Part shown: in pieces, positions 1,452-42,574 of the stretch
How positions within the stretch are numbered: the stretch's first letter is position 1
How the letters are laid out: every line of letters begins with the position of its first letter
Assembly (NCBI GenBank): GCA_018333865.1
Contig: JAGXSE010000049.1
Coordinates: 1 to 64,000 of the forward strand
Origin: Syntrophomonadaceae bacterium
GTDB lineage: Bacteria > Bacillota > PH28-bin88
Length of the DNA stretch: 64,000 nucleotides
Reading direction: 5' to 3'
The notes under the pieces: model-generated
What the model was told of the DNA's origin: nothing
What the model saw: the letters and a program-made list of their open reading frames with translations, nothing else
Databases searched by the model: none
Translations under genes and position numbers: made by a program

Positions 1452-1919
1452 CTAATTGGCAACCTTAACTGAAAAAAGGAGGCCAGGCAAGTCTTTATAG
1501 AGGGAAAACCCATAATCTTTGTAGACTTGTTCAAAACTAAAAACCTGCTCTATTCCTAACCGCTGCATTACTGCAATGTTAACAGCAATTGTATAACAAA
1601 TTGAACCTTCAATTGGTTTTCCTTGCAGGATTTCGGCAGCCAGAACCTCATCTTCTAAGGTTATCCTTTCAACATTCAGTTGATGGGCAACCTTTAACCA
1701 TGTGCGAGCCAATTCCAACCCCATTTCAGCAATTATCCAATTATAGGTATCAGCTATTACAAAATTTGTGGTAATCAATCTCCACCTTTGTTTTGCCAAC
1801 TCCCAGAAAATCTCTTTGGAAAACTTGTGCTCAGGGCCAGAGGGATCAATCAGTGTTACAAAAGCAGATGTATCGACAAAAACAACTTGATGGGCCAATG
1901 ATTTGGGGATTTTAAGCAT
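1452..1919 (-). CDS. PIN-domain protein (VapC-like toxin candidate)
   Basis: A 155-residue PIN-fold protein. The first strand carries FVDTSAFVTLID with the leading catalytic Asp, and TTNFVIADTYNWI gives the second acidic position. In the region where PIN proteins usually keep a third Asp, in a D-x-x-S context, this protein reads SICYTIAVNI, and the last acid appears as SFEQVY. The metal site may therefore be weakened. It starts nine bases after an AbrB-like gene, the classic antitoxin-toxin arrangement, so toxin activity by RNA cleavage is inferred from family and context. It could also be a decayed module. Confidence 0.7.
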   Translation of the reverse strand: MLKIPKSLAHQVVFVDTSAFVTLIDPSGPEHKFSKEIFWELAKQRWRLITTNFVIADTYNWIIAEMGLELARTWLKVAHQLNVERITLEDEVLAAEILQGKPIEGSICYTIAVNIAVMQRLGIEQVFSFEQVYKDYGFSLYKDLPGLLFSVKVAN

Positions 1920-1928
1920 TTTAAATCA

Positions 1929-2183
1929 TCACCCTTCAGAATTAACAGTCTTTGTTTGTGGGAATCCAGGTTCTATAGCCGTCTCTGCTTTACCTGCAAG
2001 TTGAAGTAAAGGATGGGCAAGAGTAAAGGGTTTTAATGACTTCACTTTATGAAATTCTATCCATCCTTCGCCCATAAAAAATTCAACTTCGTCATCTTTT
2101 TTTATTTTTGATTTTTGCAGGACTTCATCCGGCAATACAATGATCCCTTCACCCAGCATTCTAATTTTAAAAGTCTGTGCCAT
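1929..2183 (-). CDS. AbrB/MazE-family DNA-binding protein (antitoxin candidate)
   Basis: An 84-residue protein whose first 50 residues match the swapped-hairpin AbrB fold: KIRMLGEGIIVLPDEVLQKSKIKKDDEVEFF. A strong ribosome binding site (AAAGGGGAGG) precedes the ATG. It lies immediately upstream of a PIN-domain gene in the same direction, which supports an antitoxin and autorepressor role. The tail after residue 55 is not conserved in AbrB proteins and could be the toxin-binding part. The role is inferred from context. Confidence 0.75.
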   Translation of the reverse strand: MAQTFKIRMLGEGIIVLPDEVLQKSKIKKDDEVEFFMGEGWIEFHKVKSLKPFTLAHPLLQLAGKAETAIEPGFPQTKTVNSEG

Positions 2184-2369
2184 GTTGCGCCTCCCCTTTA
2201 TTATTGCTGTAGTTTAGTGATTTTTTGGGGAGTATCTTCGACCCAGATTAGGTTTTCTCCTGCATTCACAGGGCTTTTCGACAAACGGTCTTATAATAGC
2301 TGTTATCTTCTTATTTTTCTCTATATTTCTCGTGTTTCGGAGCTGCAGCATGTTCATTGAGGCTGCCCG

Positions 2370-3101
2370 TCACTTCTTGCCAATATGAACAGTAATTATT
2401 CCAAGGGAAAGTGTGTAGACATAAACATTGCTAAAGCCTGCGTTGAGCAACTTTTCTTTAATCTGCAATGGAGAAGGATAGTCTTTTAGAGAAGCTGGAA
2501 GCCAATCATATAGGCCGGAATAACCAACCCCTATGCGGCCAATAACAGGGACAATATAATTAAAATAGAGGTAAAAGACATCCTTAAATAAAGGAGTTGT
2601 TGGTTTTGCTAAATCAAGGATAGCAGCTGTTCCCCCAGGTTTTACAACCCTGCACATTTCAGACAGCACTTTATCAATGCTGGCCACATTTCTTAAAGCA
2701 AACCCTATAGCCGCCCCGTCAAACTGGTTATCTTCAAAAGGCAAGTTCATTGCATTGCCTTTAATCAAACTAATTGAGGAGTGTTTTCCTCTGTCAATCT
2801 TATTTTGTGCTACTTTCAGCATATTCTCGCAAAAGTCGAGACCAACAATCTGCCCATTGGCGCCAACTTCTTTTGCCATTTCCATGGCAAAGACTCCCGT
2901 TCCGCAACAAACGTCTAAGGCTTTTTGGCCAAACTTAAGATCCATCTGGGAAACCGCAAAATGAAACCATTTGCGGTGCTGGTTAAAACTGATTAAGGAA
3001 TTAATTATATCGTATTGACCAGCAATTTTTGTAAATATATTGCTTATATTTTCTTCTTTTATCTTTGTATCCGACTCCACCGCTTTCCACCACTTTCTCA
3101 A
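2370..3101 (-). CDS. menG: Demethylmenaquinone methyltransferase
   Basis: A class I SAM-dependent methyltransferase of the UbiE/MenG family, about 243 residues. It shows the SAM motif ALDVCCGTGVFA, then LDFCENML, the family block GFALRNV, and a C-terminal YDWLPASLKDYPSP. It performs the last methylation in menaquinone synthesis at the membrane. The start codon is TTG and overlaps the stop of the upstream HepS-like gene, so the two are translationally coupled as in the Bacillus gerCA-gerCB pair. The expected third gene, hepT, is not found downstream. Confidence 0.9.
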   Translation of the reverse strand: MRKWWKAVESDTKIKEENISNIFTKIAGQYDIINSLISFNQHRKWFHFAVSQMDLKFGQKALDVCCGTGVFAMEMAKEVGANGQIVGLDFCENMLKVAQNKIDRGKHSSISLIKGNAMNLPFEDNQFDGAAIGFALRNVASIDKVLSEMCRVVKPGGTAAILDLAKPTTPLFKDVFYLYFNYIVPVIGRIGVGYSGLYDWLPASLKDYPSPLQIKEKLLNAGFSNVYVYTLSLGIITVHIGKK

Positions 3102-3856
3102 ACAACTACCCGTCGGGCTGCTGGGACAGAAATGTAGGGAAATAAAATATCAATAAACTCTGAAAAAAAGCGGGTTTCAATACCTTTAGGCAGGTGAATT
3201 AAATCCTGGCAAGCTTTCTTGATATAACCGATGTGAGAATCATCACATCCTTTCACTGTTGCAAGGATTAAAGCAATTCCCAAGTTTACCCCTATATTCT
3301 TTACAATAGGCAAACCTTCAGGCCAATCTGCGGAAATTGCAGCGCCCAATGCACAGCACTCCCCCAACAGCAATCCGGTATTTTTCTTAGCGAAATCTAA
3401 TGTGTACTCGTTACACTTTGAACTATCTGCTGGATTGATCAGCAAATGGATTCGATTCTCATGGATGCGGCAGATTATCTGGGAAATAGTTTTTAACAAA
3501 TCGATTGAATTTGCCTCATTAATAGCAGCATAATATTGCGCAAAAAAATAGTCGCCACATAGAATTTTGTTCGCTGTCGGTTCTCGCTCATAAAGCTGAT
3601 GAATATAAGAAGCCATATAAACGTAAAAGGCAATTTTTGCTCGATCGAGAATTTCTTTGGTGTCGGAAACACGAAACGCTTTAGCAGAATAAATAACGGC
3701 AGCAGGGAAAAGAAACTTTTCAACAGGAGATGGCAGGTAACGGGAGAAAAAATCCTCTCCTTCAGTCTTCAATATAATTTTTACCTCTTTGTGAATCTGG
3801 TAAAATAAAGCATTTAGCTCATTATCAATAGAAGAATACATCTGGGTAAAGGCCAT
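3098..3856 (-). CDS. HepS-like (heptaprenyl diphosphate synthase component I) protein
   Basis: A mostly helical protein of about 252 residues with weak similarity to trans-prenyl synthases. The segment YIHQLYEREPTANKILCGDYF aligns with the region that normally carries the first aspartate-rich motif followed by GDYLF, but both DDxxD motifs are absent. Such proteins are the non-catalytic component I (HepS/GerCA), which sets product length in complex with HepT. The position directly upstream of menG with a 4-base overlap supports this. I chose the ATG at 3856 because AAAGGAGG lies ten bases upstream; the longer frame to 3922 lacks such a site. Its catalytic partner is not in the window. Confidence 0.6.
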   Translation of the reverse strand: MAFTQMYSSIDNELNALFYQIHKEVKIILKTEGEDFFSRYLPSPVEKFLFPAAVIYSAKAFRVSDTKEILDRAKIAFYVYMASYIHQLYEREPTANKILCGDYFFAQYYAAINEANSIDLLKTISQIICRIHENRIHLLINPADSSKCNEYTLDFAKKNTGLLLGECCALGAAISADWPEGLPIVKNIGVNLGIALILATVKGCDDSHIGYIKKACQDLIHLPKGIETRFFSEFIDILFPYISVPAARRVVV

Positions 3857-35438: not shown

Positions 35439-36221
35439 TTAAAATTCCTCCGCGCTTTTCCGGAAACCGATTTCATCATTTGATAGCGTACAAGAAGTAT
35501 ATACTATTATTTCTCCAAACAGTGTTTTTTGGCATGCGTATATTTTTTGTTGTCTAATCAGTTCTAAAATTGCTAAAAAAGTAACAATAACAACTTGTCT
35601 GCTGCTGGATCCATGGAATAGCTCTAAAAAACTAACTCCCTGGGGTTTAGCATTTAAATAAGAGAAAATATAATCTATCTGCTGGCTGATTGTTACTTCC
35701 TGTCTGTAAATCTCATGGATTTTCTCTTTCTCATTCGCTTTACGTACCAATTCACTTAAAGTCCTGCTTAAATCATCCAGAGATACGCCTTCTAAAGGGT
35801 TGAATTCGAACAGTGTTTTTACTGTTTCGTGGACCTCAATCGGGCGCGTTAAAAGCCTGCTTTGAATAAGCTCCTTTTCCTGCAGCCTGCTTGCTGCGCT
35901 CTTGAAGACTTTATACTCCAGCAGGCGAAAAGCCAATTCCTCTTTCAGTTCTACTAAGTCTTCAGCTATTTCATTATCTTTTTCCTTGGTAATTGAAGGC
36001 AACAACATCCTGGCTTTGATCGACATCAAGGTTGCTGCCATGATTAAAAATTCGCTGGCAATATCCAAATCAAGCTGCTGCATATTTATTAAATAATTAA
36101 GATACTGTTCGGTGACTACTGCAAGCGGGATGTCATAAATATCTAATTCGGCTTTATTAATCAGGTGAAGCAGCAAATCCAAAGGACCCTCAAAAACCGG
36201 CAGTTTAATGTGGTAAATCAA
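35439..36221 (-). CDS. scpA: Segregation and condensation protein A
   Basis: A 260-residue kleisin. FEGPLDLLLHLINKAELDIYDI at the N-terminus binds SMC, and the C-terminal winged helix (FLELFHGSSSRQVVIVTFLAILELIRQQKI) binds the other SMC head. A TTG start follows GGGGGATTTT. It lies downstream of trpS and upstream of scpB. Confidence 0.95.
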   Translation of the reverse strand: MIYHIKLPVFEGPLDLLLHLINKAELDIYDIPLAVVTEQYLNYLINMQQLDLDIASEFLIMAATLMSIKARMLLPSITKEKDNEIAEDLVELKEELAFRLLEYKVFKSAASRLQEKELIQSRLLTRPIEVHETVKTLFEFNPLEGVSLDDLSRTLSELVRKANEKEKIHEIYRQEVTISQQIDYIFSYLNAKPQGVSFLELFHGSSSRQVVIVTFLAILELIRQQKIYACQKTLFGEIIVYTSCTLSNDEIGFRKSAEEF

Positions 36222-36244: not shown

Positions 36245-37228
36245 TCAGATACCGATTGCGTCCCTTACTTCAGCCAGAGTCTGCCAGGCTACCTCTCTTG
36301 CCCTTCCAGCGCCATCATCAAGAATATCCCAAAGCAGGTTGGGATTGGCTTCAAATTGCATCCTACGCTGACGAATGGGCTCAAGCAATCTGTCCATCTT
36401 TAAGGCCAGTTCTTTCTTGCAAGCTACACAGCCGATGGCAGCGGTACGACAAAACTCTGCATGATGATCTGCATTTTCAAGATTGTAAATCTTCTGGTAG
36501 GCATATACAACACACACATTTGGATTTCCCTTGTCCGTCTTGCGAACACGAGCCGGGTCTGTAATCATCATATTAATCTTTTCCTGCAGTTCCTCAGTAC
36601 TTGCGGAAATAGGAATATCATTATGATAACTTTTACTCATTTTTCGGCCGTCGATACCTGGCAGCAAAGAAACTTTAGCTAGAATCGGCTGGGGTTCAGG
36701 AAACAATTGTTTATTGTACAAGAAATTGAATCTTCTGGCTATCTCACGGCAAAGCTCTAAATGAGGCAATTGATCTTCTCCTACCGGGACGGCATTTGCT
36801 TTATAGACCAGGATATCAGCTGTTTGCAGGACTGGGTAACCAAGGAAACCATAAGTTGAAATATCTTTTCCTTCCAGACCAAGCTGTTTTACCTGGTCTT
36901 TATAAGTAGGCACTCGTTCCAGCCAGGACAACGGCGTAATCATGGATAAAAGCAAATGCAGCTCCGCATGCTCTTTTATATGAGATTGCACCAAAATAAC
37001 GCTTTTTTTCGGATCTATACCAACACTTAGCCAGTCCAGCATCATTTCCTTAATATTGGCTTTAATTAGCCCAGTATCCTCAAAGGCAGTTGTTAAGGCA
37101 TGCCAATCAACAACACCATAGAAGCAATGAAATTCTTCCTGCAGCCTCACCCAGTTTTCCAATACGCTTAAATGGCCAATATGCAGTTTTCCGGTAGGAC
37201 GCATACCGCTAAAAATTCTGGATTGCAT
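36245..37228 (-). CDS. trpS: Tryptophan-tRNA ligase
   Basis: A 327-residue class I synthetase. The HIGH-like motif is in PTGKLHIGHL and the KMSKS motif in GRKMSKSYHND; VDWHALTT and GYPVLQTADIL form the Trp pocket. GGAGAG precedes the ATG. Part of the cca-M50-trpS-scpAB operon; no T-box is seen in the short upstream gap. Confidence 0.96.
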   Translation of the reverse strand: MQSRIFSGMRPTGKLHIGHLSVLENWVRLQEEFHCFYGVVDWHALTTAFEDTGLIKANIKEMMLDWLSVGIDPKKSVILVQSHIKEHAELHLLLSMITPLSWLERVPTYKDQVKQLGLEGKDISTYGFLGYPVLQTADILVYKANAVPVGEDQLPHLELCREIARRFNFLYNKQLFPEPQPILAKVSLLPGIDGRKMSKSYHNDIPISASTEELQEKINMMITDPARVRKTDKGNPNVCVVYAYQKIYNLENADHHAEFCRTAAIGCVACKKELALKMDRLLEPIRQRRMQFEANPNLLWDILDDGAGRAREVAWQTLAEVRDAIGI

Positions 37229-37261: not shown

Positions 37262-37876
37262 TTAGAAGTATCCCCAATTAGCAACAGTAACTATTATCTG
37301 CATAAGTCCTTCAACTGCCGGTCTTAGCACACGGCCAAGGACACCAGTTGCTAACAGCACTAAAAGAATTAATGGTCCATAAGCTTCCAAAGAGTAAAGA
37401 GAGGAAGCCATTTGCCTGGGTAAAATACCTGCTAATACTTTTGAACCATCCAGGGGAGGGAAAGGAATTAGATTGAATACTGCCAGCATTGCGTTGAACC
37501 AGAGGAGATAACTAAGGAAAATAGCAAAAAAACCATAATCTACCCGGCTCAGGATTACTGCTGCCAAGTAAGCTAAAACTATGTTCATTAAAGGACCGGC
37601 CAGGCCTACCAGCATCATTCCCCTCCGCCGGTCACCACTAAAGTAATACGGATTGACCTCTACTGGTTTAGCCCAGCCAAAGCCAGCCACTACTAACATA
37701 AGAGATCCCAGGATATCTAAATGTTTGATTGGATTAAGAGAAAGCCTGCCCTGTTGTTTCGGTGTGGGATCACCCAAAATTGAGGCCATTTTTCCGTGAG
37801 CATACTCATGGAATGTAATCGCAATAAGTATCGCCGGGATACCAGCTAACAGTCCCTGGATACTTGTAAACATCAT
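37262..37876 (-). CDS. Site-2 protease family membrane protease (M50)
   Basis: A 204-residue polytopic metalloprotease with the zinc motif HEYAHG near residue 24 and the second ligand region NLIPFPPLDGSKVLAGILP. Short members of this family (YwhC-like) cut within membranes; the substrate is unknown. Operon partner of cca and trpS, as in related Firmicutes. Confidence 0.9.
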   Translation of the reverse strand: MMFTSIQGLLAGIPAILIAITFHEYAHGKMASILGDPTPKQQGRLSLNPIKHLDILGSLMLVVAGFGWAKPVEVNPYYFSGDRRRGMMLVGLAGPLMNIVLAYLAAVILSRVDYGFFAIFLSYLLWFNAMLAVFNLIPFPPLDGSKVLAGILPRQMASSLYSLEAYGPLILLVLLATGVLGRVLRPAVEGLMQIIVTVANWGYF

Positions 37877-37877
37877 G

Positions 37878-39224
37878 TTAATTTCCTCCCGTCTGTATTA
37901 TTAGTGACCTGGAAAAGGACACTGCTTCCTCCCGATTGGTGATCAGGCCGTCCAAACATGCTCCTTCCAGCAGTTTAAGGATTTCTTTTATCCTTGGTCC
38001 AGGAGAAATGCCTAAACCAACGAGATCCTGGCCGCTAATAAAAGAAGTTGCCGATTTTCGTTGTTGCACATACTTGATTGCTAGCCCGGTATTTATTTCT
38101 CTTTGAGCTGCAATTAAAAAAACTACGGCCTCATCAGGCCAGCCTTGAAAGACTTCGTGCAGGTTAATCATATTGCATTGTGAGACAGGAAGATTAATAC
38201 TCTTAATCTGAGAAATTTTTATTAGCTTTCGGATATTCTGTTTAGATAGGCCAAATTTTTTCCCGAGGGAAATAACCTGTACCTTTGACCAGCGATGAAC
38301 CAGACATCCGAGATATATTATTGGATGATCAATCTGCTCTTTCACCCCTGGATAGTCTTCCAGCAGCCCTTCTAATTGTATCAATAGGCTCCTCAAGTCC
38401 TGGTCAAAATAAAGACCCGGAAGGATAACTTCCAGCACCCCCAGTTCGAAAAGCCTGTTTAAGCTTTGGCTTGGTTTAGTTTGAGCAAAAAGAGCTGATA
38501 ATTCTGCCCAAATCCTAACCCCGGAAAGCTTGGCAACAGCCACTAATGCCTGATGATCCATAGCCAGTCTCTCTGTAGTTGGCTCCATCTGATAACCATA
38601 GCGGCCCTCAAACCTTACTGCTCTTAATATTCTGGTAGGGTCTTCGATGAAGCTAAAATTGTGCATAACCCTAATCTTTTTATTGATAATGTCGCTGTAA
38701 CCGCCCAAAAAATCAATCAAAGAGCCCCATTTTTTACCATTCAGCTGAATAGCCATTGCATTAATTGTAAAGTCCCGCCGGCAAAGATCTTCTTTAAGCT
38801 CTGCTGCTTCAACTTGCGGCAGTGCCGCCGGGTATTCATAATACTCCCTCCTGGCAGAAGCTACATCAACCTTCACCTTTGAGGGGAAGAGCAGGGTTAC
38901 AGTGCCAAATCTTTCGTGATCTACTACTTCTGCATCTAAAAAGCGCTTAATATTATGGGCAAAATCAATTCCATCCCCCTCGACAACAATATCCACGTCT
39001 AAGCTTGGGATATTCAGCAACAGATCTCGAACAGCTCCACCTACAAGGTATGCTTTAATGCCCAACTGGTCTGCCAACCGGCTAAAAATAAGCAATACAT
39101 CCAGCAATTGGGGAGCAAGATTTCGCATGGTGACTCTTGTGTTTTTAGAAGGTATTTTTATGTTCTTATTCATTGATGCAAGACCATCGAAATCAAGATT
39201 CACATGAGATGCAATGATAATCAT
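37878..39224 (-). CDS. cca: tRNA nucleotidyltransferase (CCA- or A-adding)
   Basis: A 448-residue class II nucleotidyltransferase with the catalytic head AYLVGGAVRDLLL and DVDIVVEGDG, then RRDFTINAMAI and FIEDPTRILRAVRFEGRYG. The N-terminal 18 residues (IIIASHVNLDFDGLASM) are the first motif of a DHH phosphoesterase, which is found at the start of the much longer DHH-CBS-nucleotidyltransferase proteins of this group; the DHH and CBS body is missing. Whether it adds A, CC or CCA cannot be decided here. ATG at 39224; a TTG lies just before it. Confidence 0.85.
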   Translation of the reverse strand: MIIIASHVNLDFDGLASMNKNIKIPSKNTRVTMRNLAPQLLDVLLIFSRLADQLGIKAYLVGGAVRDLLLNIPSLDVDIVVEGDGIDFAHNIKRFLDAEVVDHERFGTVTLLFPSKVKVDVASARREYYEYPAALPQVEAAELKEDLCRRDFTINAMAIQLNGKKWGSLIDFLGGYSDIINKKIRVMHNFSFIEDPTRILRAVRFEGRYGYQMEPTTERLAMDHQALVAVAKLSGVRIWAELSALFAQTKPSQSLNRLFELGVLEVILPGLYFDQDLRSLLIQLEGLLEDYPGVKEQIDHPIIYLGCLVHRWSKVQVISLGKKFGLSKQNIRKLIKISQIKSINLPVSQCNMINLHEVFQGWPDEAVVFLIAAQREINTGLAIKYVQQRKSATSFISGQDLVGLGISPGPRIKEILKLLEGACLDGLITNREEAVSFSRSLIIQTGGN

Positions 39225-39254
39225 CAAACGGCACCCTTTTTAAAAACTTATTTG

Positions 39255-39284
39255 ATTATATCACGGTTTTATTTAGCAATTCAA
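39255..39284 (-). promoter_or_regulatory. SigA-type promoter of the cca operon
   Basis: TTGAAT, an 18-base spacer and TATAAT on the minus strand, about 31 bases before the cca start and after the lysA terminator. Confidence 0.65.
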
Positions 39285-39328: not shown

Positions 39329-39365
39329 TAAAAAAAATCAGCCTCAGGCATCCCCTAAGGCTGAC
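39329..39365 (-). terminator. terminator of lysA
   Basis: An 11-pair stem (TCAGCCTTAGG with CCTGAGGCTGA) and a short loop are followed by eight T on the minus strand, about 27 bases after the lysA stop. Confidence 0.9.
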
Positions 39366-39391
39366 TAAATAACTGCCTTTATCATTTAAAA

Positions 39392-40711
39392 TCATTCTCT
39401 TATTAACCGATCAGGAATAACATCATTTCTAATCAGGTCGTCAAGGGTTTCCCTGCGCAATATCAAACTTGCATCCCCATTATTAACCAACACAATTGCC
39501 GGCCTGCGCAAACGATTGTAGTTGCTTGACATTGTATATCCATAGGCCCCTGTTGAGGAGACAGCCAGGATGTCTCCAGGAGTAATTTGGGGCAATTTAA
39601 TATCCCAGATGAGCATATCTCCGGATTCGCAACACTTGCCCGTGATAGATACTGTTTCATAAAGAGGCCATTCTGCTTTATTTGCTATCATGGCTTGATA
39701 ACGAGCGCCATATAGAGCTGGCCGGATATTGTCTGTCATGCCGCCGTTTACCGCAACATATTTCCTAACCTGTGGGATGTCTTTGATACTGCCCACAGAA
39801 TACAATGTAGTTCCAGCATTACCTACTATGGAACGCCCAGGTTCAATAATAATCTTAGGGGTTTGGATTTCCCTTGCGTTCGAAGCTTCGATTACCGCAG
39901 CCATGACTGTTTCAGCATAACCAGAGATTGAAGCAGGCGCATCCTTGTCAGTGTAATAAATACCAAAGCCACCACCTATGTTAAGCTCCTCAACCGTAAG
40001 TCCTGTTTTTTCTTTAATTTCCTTAATAAAATCAATCATTGTGGAAACAGTATGGGCATAGGAATCCATTTCAAATATCTGAGAGCCTATATGGCAATGC
40101 AGGCCTTTAAACACTAAATTGCGGGCTCTAGCAAGGCTAGTGATAGCTTCAAAAGCCTGTCCGTTAGGTACTGTAAAGCCAAATTTAGAATCAATTTGAC
40201 CTGTCTTGATATATTCATGGGTATGAGCTTCAATTCCCGGTGACACCCGCAAAAGTATGCCCGGGGTCTTGCCTCTTTCTTTAGCGAGTATTTCTAAATT
40301 ATCCATTTCAAAAAAGTTATCAACCACTATTCGGCCAATATTGTATTCCAAGGCCATACTTAGCTCCTGGATTGACTTATTGTTACCATGAAAATAGATC
40401 CGTTCAGGCGGGAAGCCAGACATAATAGCAGTGTGCAGCTCACCATCGGATACTACATCTAAACCAAGGTCTTCTTCCTCGATAATTCTGCACATGGCAG
40501 TCGTCAAGAAAGCCTTGCTGGCATATATCACTTCTGCATTACCATATTTCTCCGTAAAATTTCTTCTATACTCGCGACAGACACCACGAATCAGAGCTTC
40601 ATCCATCACATAAAGCGGCGTTCCAAATTCCTGCACCAATTCAACAGTGTCACACCCACCAATTTCCAAATGACCTTTTTGATTGATCTTCATTGTGCCG
40701 TGGAATTTCAT
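39392..40711 (-). CDS. lysA: Diaminopimelate decarboxylase
   Basis: A 439-residue PLP enzyme (fold type III) that makes lysine from meso-diaminopimelate. VIYASKAFLT holds the PLP lysine; GLHCHIGSQIF, LNIGGGFGI and EPGRSIV bind the phosphate; and CCESGD is the cross-subunit active-site motif. The ATG at 40711 follows AGGAGGAAG; a TTG at 40747 falls in the terminator loop region and is rejected. Expression is controlled by a lysine riboswitch upstream. Confidence 0.96.
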   Translation of the reverse strand: MKFHGTMKINQKGHLEIGGCDTVELVQEFGTPLYVMDEALIRGVCREYRRNFTEKYGNAEVIYASKAFLTTAMCRIIEEEDLGLDVVSDGELHTAIMSGFPPERIYFHGNNKSIQELSMALEYNIGRIVVDNFFEMDNLEILAKERGKTPGILLRVSPGIEAHTHEYIKTGQIDSKFGFTVPNGQAFEAITSLARARNLVFKGLHCHIGSQIFEMDSYAHTVSTMIDFIKEIKEKTGLTVEELNIGGGFGIYYTDKDAPASISGYAETVMAAVIEASNAREIQTPKIIIEPGRSIVGNAGTTLYSVGSIKDIPQVRKYVAVNGGMTDNIRPALYGARYQAMIANKAEWPLYETVSITGKCCESGDMLIWDIKLPQITPGDILAVSSTGAYGYTMSSNYNRLRRPAIVLVNNGDASLILRRETLDDLIRNDVIPDRLIRE

Positions 40712-40742
40712 TTTTCTTCCTCCTAATGTTAAAATAATGGTG

Positions 40743-40779
40743 GGCAAAAATAATGGCCATGAGCATTTTATTCATGGCC
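40743..40779 (-). terminator. riboswitch-controlled terminator of lysA
   Basis: The minus strand reads GGCCATGA, a nine-base loop, TCATGGCC and ATTATTTTT. It lies between the lysine aptamer and lysA, so it is the likely expression platform. A wider GGTGGGC/GCCCACC pairing encloses it. Confidence 0.8.
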
Positions 40780-41080: not shown

Positions 41081-42574
41081 TTATTCCGCCTCTAACGGCT
41101 GCCTGTCCGGATCAAGGGGTTTTAAAATGCTGGGCCTTGTTTTCTGAATTGGCACAGGGGGTCTGACAATTATTGTTATAAGAGCTGGTAAATTTAATGG
41201 AATCAAAGGCCATAAGTAAGGGACGCCGAAGGATTTGGTTTTCCCCAAATAAACCATCAACAGGAAAATACCAATCAGGAAACCTGGTAATTGTGCCGCC
41301 GCAACCGAAAGCAAGAGAAAAATCCGCACCATGTTATTAGCCATCCCAAGCTCATAGCTTGGGGTGGCAAAAGTGCCAACTGTTGCTATAGCCACATATA
41401 ACACAACTTCCGGAGCAAATAAACCAATGTTTACTGCCATATCTCCAATTAAAACCGCCGCAATCAGGCCAAGAGCAGTGGTTAGCGCACTTGGAGTATG
41501 TATTGCAGCCATCCGCATTAAAGTAATGCCACCCTCAGCAATGAGAAACTGCCACAGCAGAGGCACATTACCTATTCGTTCGGGACCAATGTACTTTAAT
41601 TGAGAAGGGAGCAAAGCCGGCTCAATAGAGAATAAAAACCACAATGGTAAAATCAGGACTGAAACTAGAATCCCGGCAAACCTAACCATCCGAAGAAATG
41701 CACCTACAGCAGGATTCTGCCTGAATTCTTCTGCATGCTGCACATGGTGGAAAAAGGTGGCAGGAAGAATCATTACACTCGGAGATGTATCAACCAGGAG
41801 CAAGATATGGCCTTCAAACAGGTGTACTGCTGCTACATCCGGACGCTCTGTATAGCGAACACGCGGAAATGGATTCCATATGCTTCCAGGTTGAATAAGC
41901 TCTTCAACTGATTTTTCCGCCATTGGCAGACCATCCATTGTGATTGCTTTGATTCTTTCCTTCACCATTTTAACCATTTCAGGGTTAGCTATATCATTGA
42001 TATACGAAATACAGATGTCTGTTTTTGACCTTTGACCGGCTTGCAGCATCTCCATTCTAAGTTTTGGATCCCTGACACGTCTCCGAATTAAGGCAGTATT
42101 GAACACGATGGTTTCCACAAAACCATCACGGGACCCCCTGACCACCCGCTCCAAATCCGGCTCTTCCGGATTGCGGGCAGGATATTCCCTGGCATCAATT
42201 ATGATTGCCATTGCTTCATCTTCAACCATTAAGGCTAAAGGTCCAGCTAAAACGGCGTCAACCACCTGATGCAAATCTGATAAAATATCTACTTCTATGT
42301 AGGGAATATCTTTAGCAAAGAGACGTTTTATTACTTCTGGATCATCTCCAGCCAAGTTATGGCGGTCTATCCCAGCAAGGGTTCTCATGATGAGTAGCAT
42401 GATGTCATCTTTGGCAAATCCGTCGATAAAAACAATGGCAGCTCTTTTGCCGGCAAAAACAAATTCTCGGCTAATCACATCAAAACTCTCGCCAATCCCC
42501 AACTCACGCTTAAGCCACGATAGATTTTCCTCGAATTCTTTCTTCATTGGGACTTTGGCCCCATTAATTGCCAT
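41081..42574 (-). CDS. spoVAF: Stage V sporulation protein AF (GerA family)
   Basis: A 497-residue protein of the GerA germinant-receptor A-subunit fold. The cytoplasmic N-terminal part holds EARNPEEPDLERVVRGSRDGFVE-like DLERVVRGSRDGFVETIVFN, and the membrane part has about five spans beginning MVRFAGILVSVLILPLWF. SpoVAF is thought to form the channel FigP with SpoVAEa in spores and to act in germination. It overlaps spoVAEA by 11 bases. The last gene of the spoVA group here. Confidence 0.93.
   Translation of the reverse strand: MAINGAKVPMKKEFEENLSWLKRELGIGESFDVISREFVFAGKRAAIVFIDGFAKDDIMLLIMRTLAGIDRHNLAGDDPEVIKRLFAKDIPYIEVDILSDLHQVVDAVLAGPLALMVEDEAMAIIIDAREYPARNPEEPDLERVVRGSRDGFVETIVFNTALIRRRVRDPKLRMEMLQAGQRSKTDICISYINDIANPEMVKMVKERIKAITMDGLPMAEKSVEELIQPGSIWNPFPRVRYTERPDVAAVHLFEGHILLLVDTSPSVMILPATFFHHVQHAEEFRQNPAVGAFLRMVRFAGILVSVLILPLWFLFSIEPALLPSQLKYIGPERIGNVPLLWQFLIAEGGITLMRMAAIHTPSALTTALGLIAAVLIGDMAVNIGLFAPEVVLYVAIATVGTFATPSYELGMANNMVRIFLLLSVAAAQLPGFLIGIFLLMVYLGKTKSFGVPYLWPLIPLNLPALITIIVRPPVPIQKTRPSILKPLDPDRQPLEAE

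Follow-up and report, generated by a model that had tools for sequence, protein, structure and literature searches.

The window, the whole 64,000-nucleotide stretch of DNA analysed here, carries on its minus strand a tRNA nucleotidyltransferase gene that encodes only the core enzyme and opens with a DHH-type motif. The gene, its parts and its surroundings are laid out as follows.

35439 to 36221, minus strand: scpA, a conserved downstream neighbour
36245 to 37228, minus strand: trpS, a conserved downstream neighbour
37262 to 37876, minus strand: site-2-protease-type membrane protein, a conserved downstream neighbour
37878 to 39224, minus strand: the core-only tRNA nucleotidyltransferase gene, 448 codons from the ATG at 39224 or 449 from an in-frame TTG at 39227
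37920 to 38039, minus strand: C-terminal tail domain PF13735, a weak match below the cut-off
38412 to 38597, minus strand: RNA-binding or neck domain PF12627, a Pfam match
38670 to 39053, minus strand: nucleotidyltransferase head PF01743, with GGxVRD, the DVD carboxylates (codons 76 and 78), the flexible loop and RRDFTINAMA
39114 to 39170, minus strand: linker, about codons 19-37, equivalent to the region that joins the second CBS domain to the nucleotidyltransferase head in full-length relatives
39168 to 39173, minus strand: putative deletion junction, codons 18/19 (Met-Asn), placed by comparison with two same-family genomes
39171 to 39224, minus strand: codons 1-18, MIIIASHVNLDFDGLASM, the putative scar, read as what is left of a lost DHH domain, its first strand and motif I
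39255 to 39284, minus strand: promoter-like site TTGAAT-18-TATAAT, a consensus match directly upstream of the nucleotidyltransferase gene
39336 to 39366, minus strand: terminator-like hairpin 3' of lysA, which sets lysA apart from the nucleotidyltransferase gene
39392 to 40747, minus strand: lysA (diaminopimelate decarboxylase), the conserved upstream neighbour

Further upstream of lysA, positions 41081-42574 of the minus strand encode a GerA/SpoVAF-like spore-germination membrane protein, as judged by eye from the translation, which suggests a spore-forming Bacillota host.

The likely start of the nucleotidyltransferase gene is the ATG at 39224, which is favoured over the TTG at 39227 by the promoter-like match together with a Shine-Dalgarno-like AAGGGTG (also a consensus match) preceding the ATG. 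Computed pairing with the 16S tail is -6.3 kcal/mol at this first codon, against -4.7 at the ATG of codon 18 and -2.4 at codon 33, and an internal start that skips the scar is thus less favoured. Promoter, Shine-Dalgarno sequence and start codon appear to be the ones that the full-length gene originally had, and the presence of the first two at the first ATG agrees with the proposal of an earlier note that the original start survived the deletion.

Apart from its first residues, the protein is a recognizable class-II tRNA nucleotidyltransferase, with a PolyA_pol head, two catalytic aspartates, RRDFTxNA and EDxxR, the last as an EDPTR nucleotide-selection motif from codon 194, just past the Pfam head match. 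It retains 58 of 64 near-invariant core positions, and DVD, RRDFTINAMA and EDPTR are intact. A Pfam search of the 448-residue protein found no DHH and no CBS domain. An AlphaFold model of it, made without an alignment, has a mean pLDDT of 34, too low to be informative.

The start of the gene tells a different story from the rest of it. The earlier note had matched the first residues to the first motif of DHH phosphoesterases, and MIIIASHVNLDFDGLASM at the gene start indeed matches the first DHH motif, with which full-length DHH-DHHA1-CBS-CBS-nucleotidyltransferase proteins open. Residues 2-18, IIIASHVNLDFDGLASM, share 13-14 of 17 residues with the opening of the best full-length homologues. 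On a start-motif profile built from 39 full-length homologues (35 distinct motifs), this 17-mer scores 48.2 bits, within the 41-59 bits of the family's own members. Of the 57,707 17-mers that the window's six frames contain, the runner-up reaches 2.4 bits, which bears out the match; the top score among 10 million random 17-mers is 16.0. On these scores, a chance origin of the scar motif is excluded. The motif-I residues are all unchanged, including both aspartates. Motif I is all that the window protein has of a DHH phosphoesterase, however, with no Pfam match to DHH or DHHA1, and the scar would have no function of its own. The possibility that the leader is functional, through metal or nucleotide binding or through regulation of translation or stability, and has been kept for that reason, draws on the intact motif-I residues, both aspartates among them. 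It strikes us as very improbable, given that the further DHH active-site motifs are gone, that the leader adds no domain, that carrying the start codon is the simplest reason for its persistence, and that 12 other core-only forms (described below) manage without one.

Immediately after the motif the sequences part. In G084 family-type sequences and others the motif continues as VAAxKLYP..., and in the window gene as NKNIKIPSKNTRVTMRNLAPQLLDVL..., which aligns, in full-length relatives, with the linker behind the second CBS domain and the beginning of the nucleotidyltransferase. Residues 19-448 as a whole align behind the second CBS domain of full-length homologues. The 880-position NCBIfam profile NF041569 matches the window protein only at positions 454-876, so the jump from motif straight to nucleotidyltransferase that the earlier note described is upheld, residue 19 onward being the nucleotidyltransferase half. 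The protein's score of 276 bits falls under the cut-off of 1440, as half a protein would be expected to do. NF041569 bears the family name A-adding tRNA nucleotidyltransferase, and the DHH, DHHA1 and two CBS domains at its N-terminal end are missing from the window protein. Measured as the motif-to-head span against 40 full-length homologues, the missing stretch has a median of about 422 residues (range 406-433), slightly larger than the roughly 400 residues originally proposed for an in-frame internal deletion; the deletion itself stands. The predicted mapping of the N-terminal motif and the remainder of the protein to the two ends of a long homologue was reproduced by the alignment.

Full-length genes occupy the corresponding slot in both same-family genomes, G002 and G001. 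The gene order lysA-nucleotidyltransferase-site-2 protease-trpS-scpA-scpB is common to the window, G002, G001 and two genomes with core-only genes, G047 and G029. In G002 and G001 the slot holds genes of 880-888 codons that encode DHH, DHHA1, two CBS domains and the nucleotidyltransferase, as had been anticipated for this place (a fusion of over 800 residues), and the absence of a long homologue with the same start from close relatives, which would have told against the proposal, is not what we find in either genome. These full-length orthologues share start motif and neighbourhood with the window gene and differ from it in that their DHH, DHHA1 and CBS domains are intact. Sampling at the order and class level comprises three genomes only, the window genome, G002 and G001. 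The lysA, site-2 protease and trpS proteins are 65-72% identical between these genomes, and the nucleotidyltransferase cores are 38-44% identical among the three. Core identity is 43.6% for the window protein and G002 and likewise for G002 and G001. The core thus gives no clear sign of having evolved much faster after the loss, though the branch of the window protein in the core tree is longer (1.08 against 0.57). Because full-length genes fill the same slot in both same-family genomes, we take the window gene to be an orthologue with a lost middle: judged by position and alignment, it is the positional orthologue missing about 422 residues, and neither a fusion gain nor a transferred short gene.

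It could be argued that the short form came first or arrived by transfer, its start motif being either a chance product or the recaptured start of a DHH gene. In bacteria the core-only enzyme is the usual form, and a published scheme takes a core CCA enzyme as the ancestor (PMC8208693). Yet the motif lies far beyond chance and stands where full-length proteins have it, right at the start of the gene. The slot holds a full-length gene in both same-family genomes, and in the tree the window protein falls into one group (support 96/85) with G047, which is core-only, and with the full-length G002 and G001. We regard this scenario as the least credible of those considered.

A deletion in the genome could instead be an error in the assembly, with a real full-length gene from which about 1.26 kb was dropped in building contig C49. 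The junction is seen in one genome only, represented by a single assembly in 71 contigs. Against such an error, the junction is in frame and within an interdomain linker, it lies far from the ends of a 131-kb contig, none of the other contigs of a genome rated 100% complete carries the missing body, and independent core-only forms at this locus imply that the loss is tolerated. We consider an assembly error unlikely.

The history that we regard as very probable is therefore that the window gene is an orthologue of the DHH-DHHA1-CBS-CBS-nucleotidyltransferase genes in which an in-frame deletion of about 420 codons left a core enzyme, likely for CCA-end repair. One internal deletion would have removed the rest of DHH, DHHA1 and both CBS domains, joining codon 18 to the linker ahead of the nucleotidyltransferase head, while promoter, ribosome-binding site and start codon of the original gene would have stayed in place. 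We infer a single event. In both same-family genomes an ATG stands at each corresponding end (LAS-ATG and T-ATG-YQ), 418-419 codons apart, and joining these ends would yield LASM followed by the linker, matching the window gene. The paired ATGs are a candidate microhomology for the deletion, one deduced from the sequences of the two relatives. The resulting product would be a core class-II tRNA nucleotidyltransferase of the Thermotoga maritima CCA-adding or Aquifex aeolicus A-adding type that begins with a functionless leader of 18 residues.

The lost body does not appear to persist elsewhere. A search of the window genome with the DHH-CBS half of G002 found no second copy; it matched NrnA, IMP dehydrogenase and two further CBS proteins, and gave a weak hit on the scar. 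This rules out a DHH-CBS body split off as a separate gene. The NrnA gene sits in an infB-nrnA-truB setting, and a DHH family search of the genome returned only this NrnA and one 1007-codon frame, probably RecJ. Replacement of the lost DHH domain by the free-standing NrnA is likewise unsupported, since genomes with full-length genes also have an NrnA-sized DHH gene, although none was seen in G001 (84% complete).

Core-only forms recur across the phylum. Among 398 sampled genomes, each at least 90% complete, an orthologue (E <= 1e-50) is present in 137: 122 full-length, 13 core-only including the window gene, one cut by a contig start (G011) and one intermediate (G012), with classes assigned by frame length and core-only genes spanning 357-488 codons. 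That 122 of the 137 orthologues, like the genes of both same-family genomes, are full-length with the shared start motif speaks for the deletion. The 12 other core-only genes adjoin the same neighbours, the site-2 protease or, in G283, scpA. None of the 12 has a DHH motif at its start, and the scar is found only in the window gene. In the maximum-likelihood core tree, whose bootstrap is not settled, the core-only label needs at least six changes, three of them forced by well-supported branches. Families f110 and f96 hold a core-only and a full-length gene side by side, a mixture that favours repeated loss. Long branches among the short forms and the lack of a root make the number of loss events a rough one. 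The core-only G047 and G029 genes, of 444-464 codons, share the locus and the missing DHH-CBS body with the window gene but belong to other families and have no recognisable DHH remnant; by the tree, forms of this type are probably losses separate from that of the window gene. A single loss shared by the window gene and G047 is disfavoured, as full-length G002 and G001 are placed closer to G047, though not by strict support.

Several of these loci show variations of their own. A 658-codon nucleotidyltransferase frame in G012 (contig C59, L108, positions 1599-3572) has a shortened DHH part and a decayed first motif, SAKNFDTLAG where SHxNxDFDGLA is expected, and gives the appearance of a gene midway through the same loss. 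In G283 (contig C139, L098) scpA directly follows the core-only nucleotidyltransferase, and the site-2 protease gene that lies between them elsewhere is missing there. The nucleotidyltransferases of G245 and G287 (L102 and L105), of 357-371 codons, align with the window protein in the head and neck alone (about residues 48-283), so that reduction or replacement may have affected their C-terminal body too.

As to what the core enzyme does, its nearest relative of solved structure is the T. maritima CCA-adding enzyme (PDB 3h37-3h3a; E 5e-71, window residues 31-435), which has the same order of head, neck, body and tail and the same flexible-loop length. The native T. maritima protein has Nrn (DHH-type) and CBS domains (PMC8208693), which the window gene itself lacks, and the enzyme is reported to add CCA without them (PMC8208693). 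The core is also homologous to the A. aeolicus A-adding enzyme (PDB 1vfg, 4wbz; E about 2e-50, window residues 48-310). In alignments the window protein's flexible loop is full length, equal to those of both enzymes; the loop is needed for A76 addition and is absent or short in CC-adding enzymes (PMC3925840). The A. aeolicus enzyme partners a separate CC-adding enzyme (PMC3925840), whereas a family search of the whole window genome found no second PolyA_pol head or tRNA nucleotidyltransferase, a situation like that of T. maritima, whose enzyme is the only one in its organism (PMC3925840). CCA is encoded in 46 of 46 tRNA genes of the window genome, and in all 35 distinct tRNA sequences read from G002. 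Because the enzyme is the sole nucleotidyltransferase found and all tRNA genes encode CCA, this enzyme, whose activity is predicted from its sequence, most likely repairs worn CCA ends by the addition of A76 and perhaps also of C75 and C74. The conversion of a multidomain tRNA-end enzyme to a minimal one, as first proposed, holds with respect to the loss of the phosphoesterase and CBS parts; it is not unusual, recurring in 12 other genomes.

The product of the window gene is thus a known kind of enzyme, and the gene a clean fossil of recurrent domain loss. We found no description of natural loss of the DHH-CBS half in the open literature. The scar, present in the window gene only, gives the direction of change as loss and not fusion gain without a rooted tree, because a DHH start motif is not expected unless a DHH domain was once present. 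With modest confidence, we suggest that the phylum has seen repeated, independent losses of the DHH-CBS half at a single conserved locus with the core retained, that the window gene is the one sampled case with readable breakpoints, possibly at an ATG microhomology, and that in vivo a lone nucleotidyltransferase can do without the accessory half if the tRNA genes encode CCA. The role of the DHH and CBS halves in tRNA-end enzymes is apparently unsettled in the papers searched. In the window gene a natural deletion would have spared the promoter, the start codon and the enzymatic core, in a genome in which no second nucleotidyltransferase was found, and the full-length G002 enzyme and the core-only window enzyme, with locus, neighbours and CCA-encoded tRNAs in common, form a ready-made comparison.
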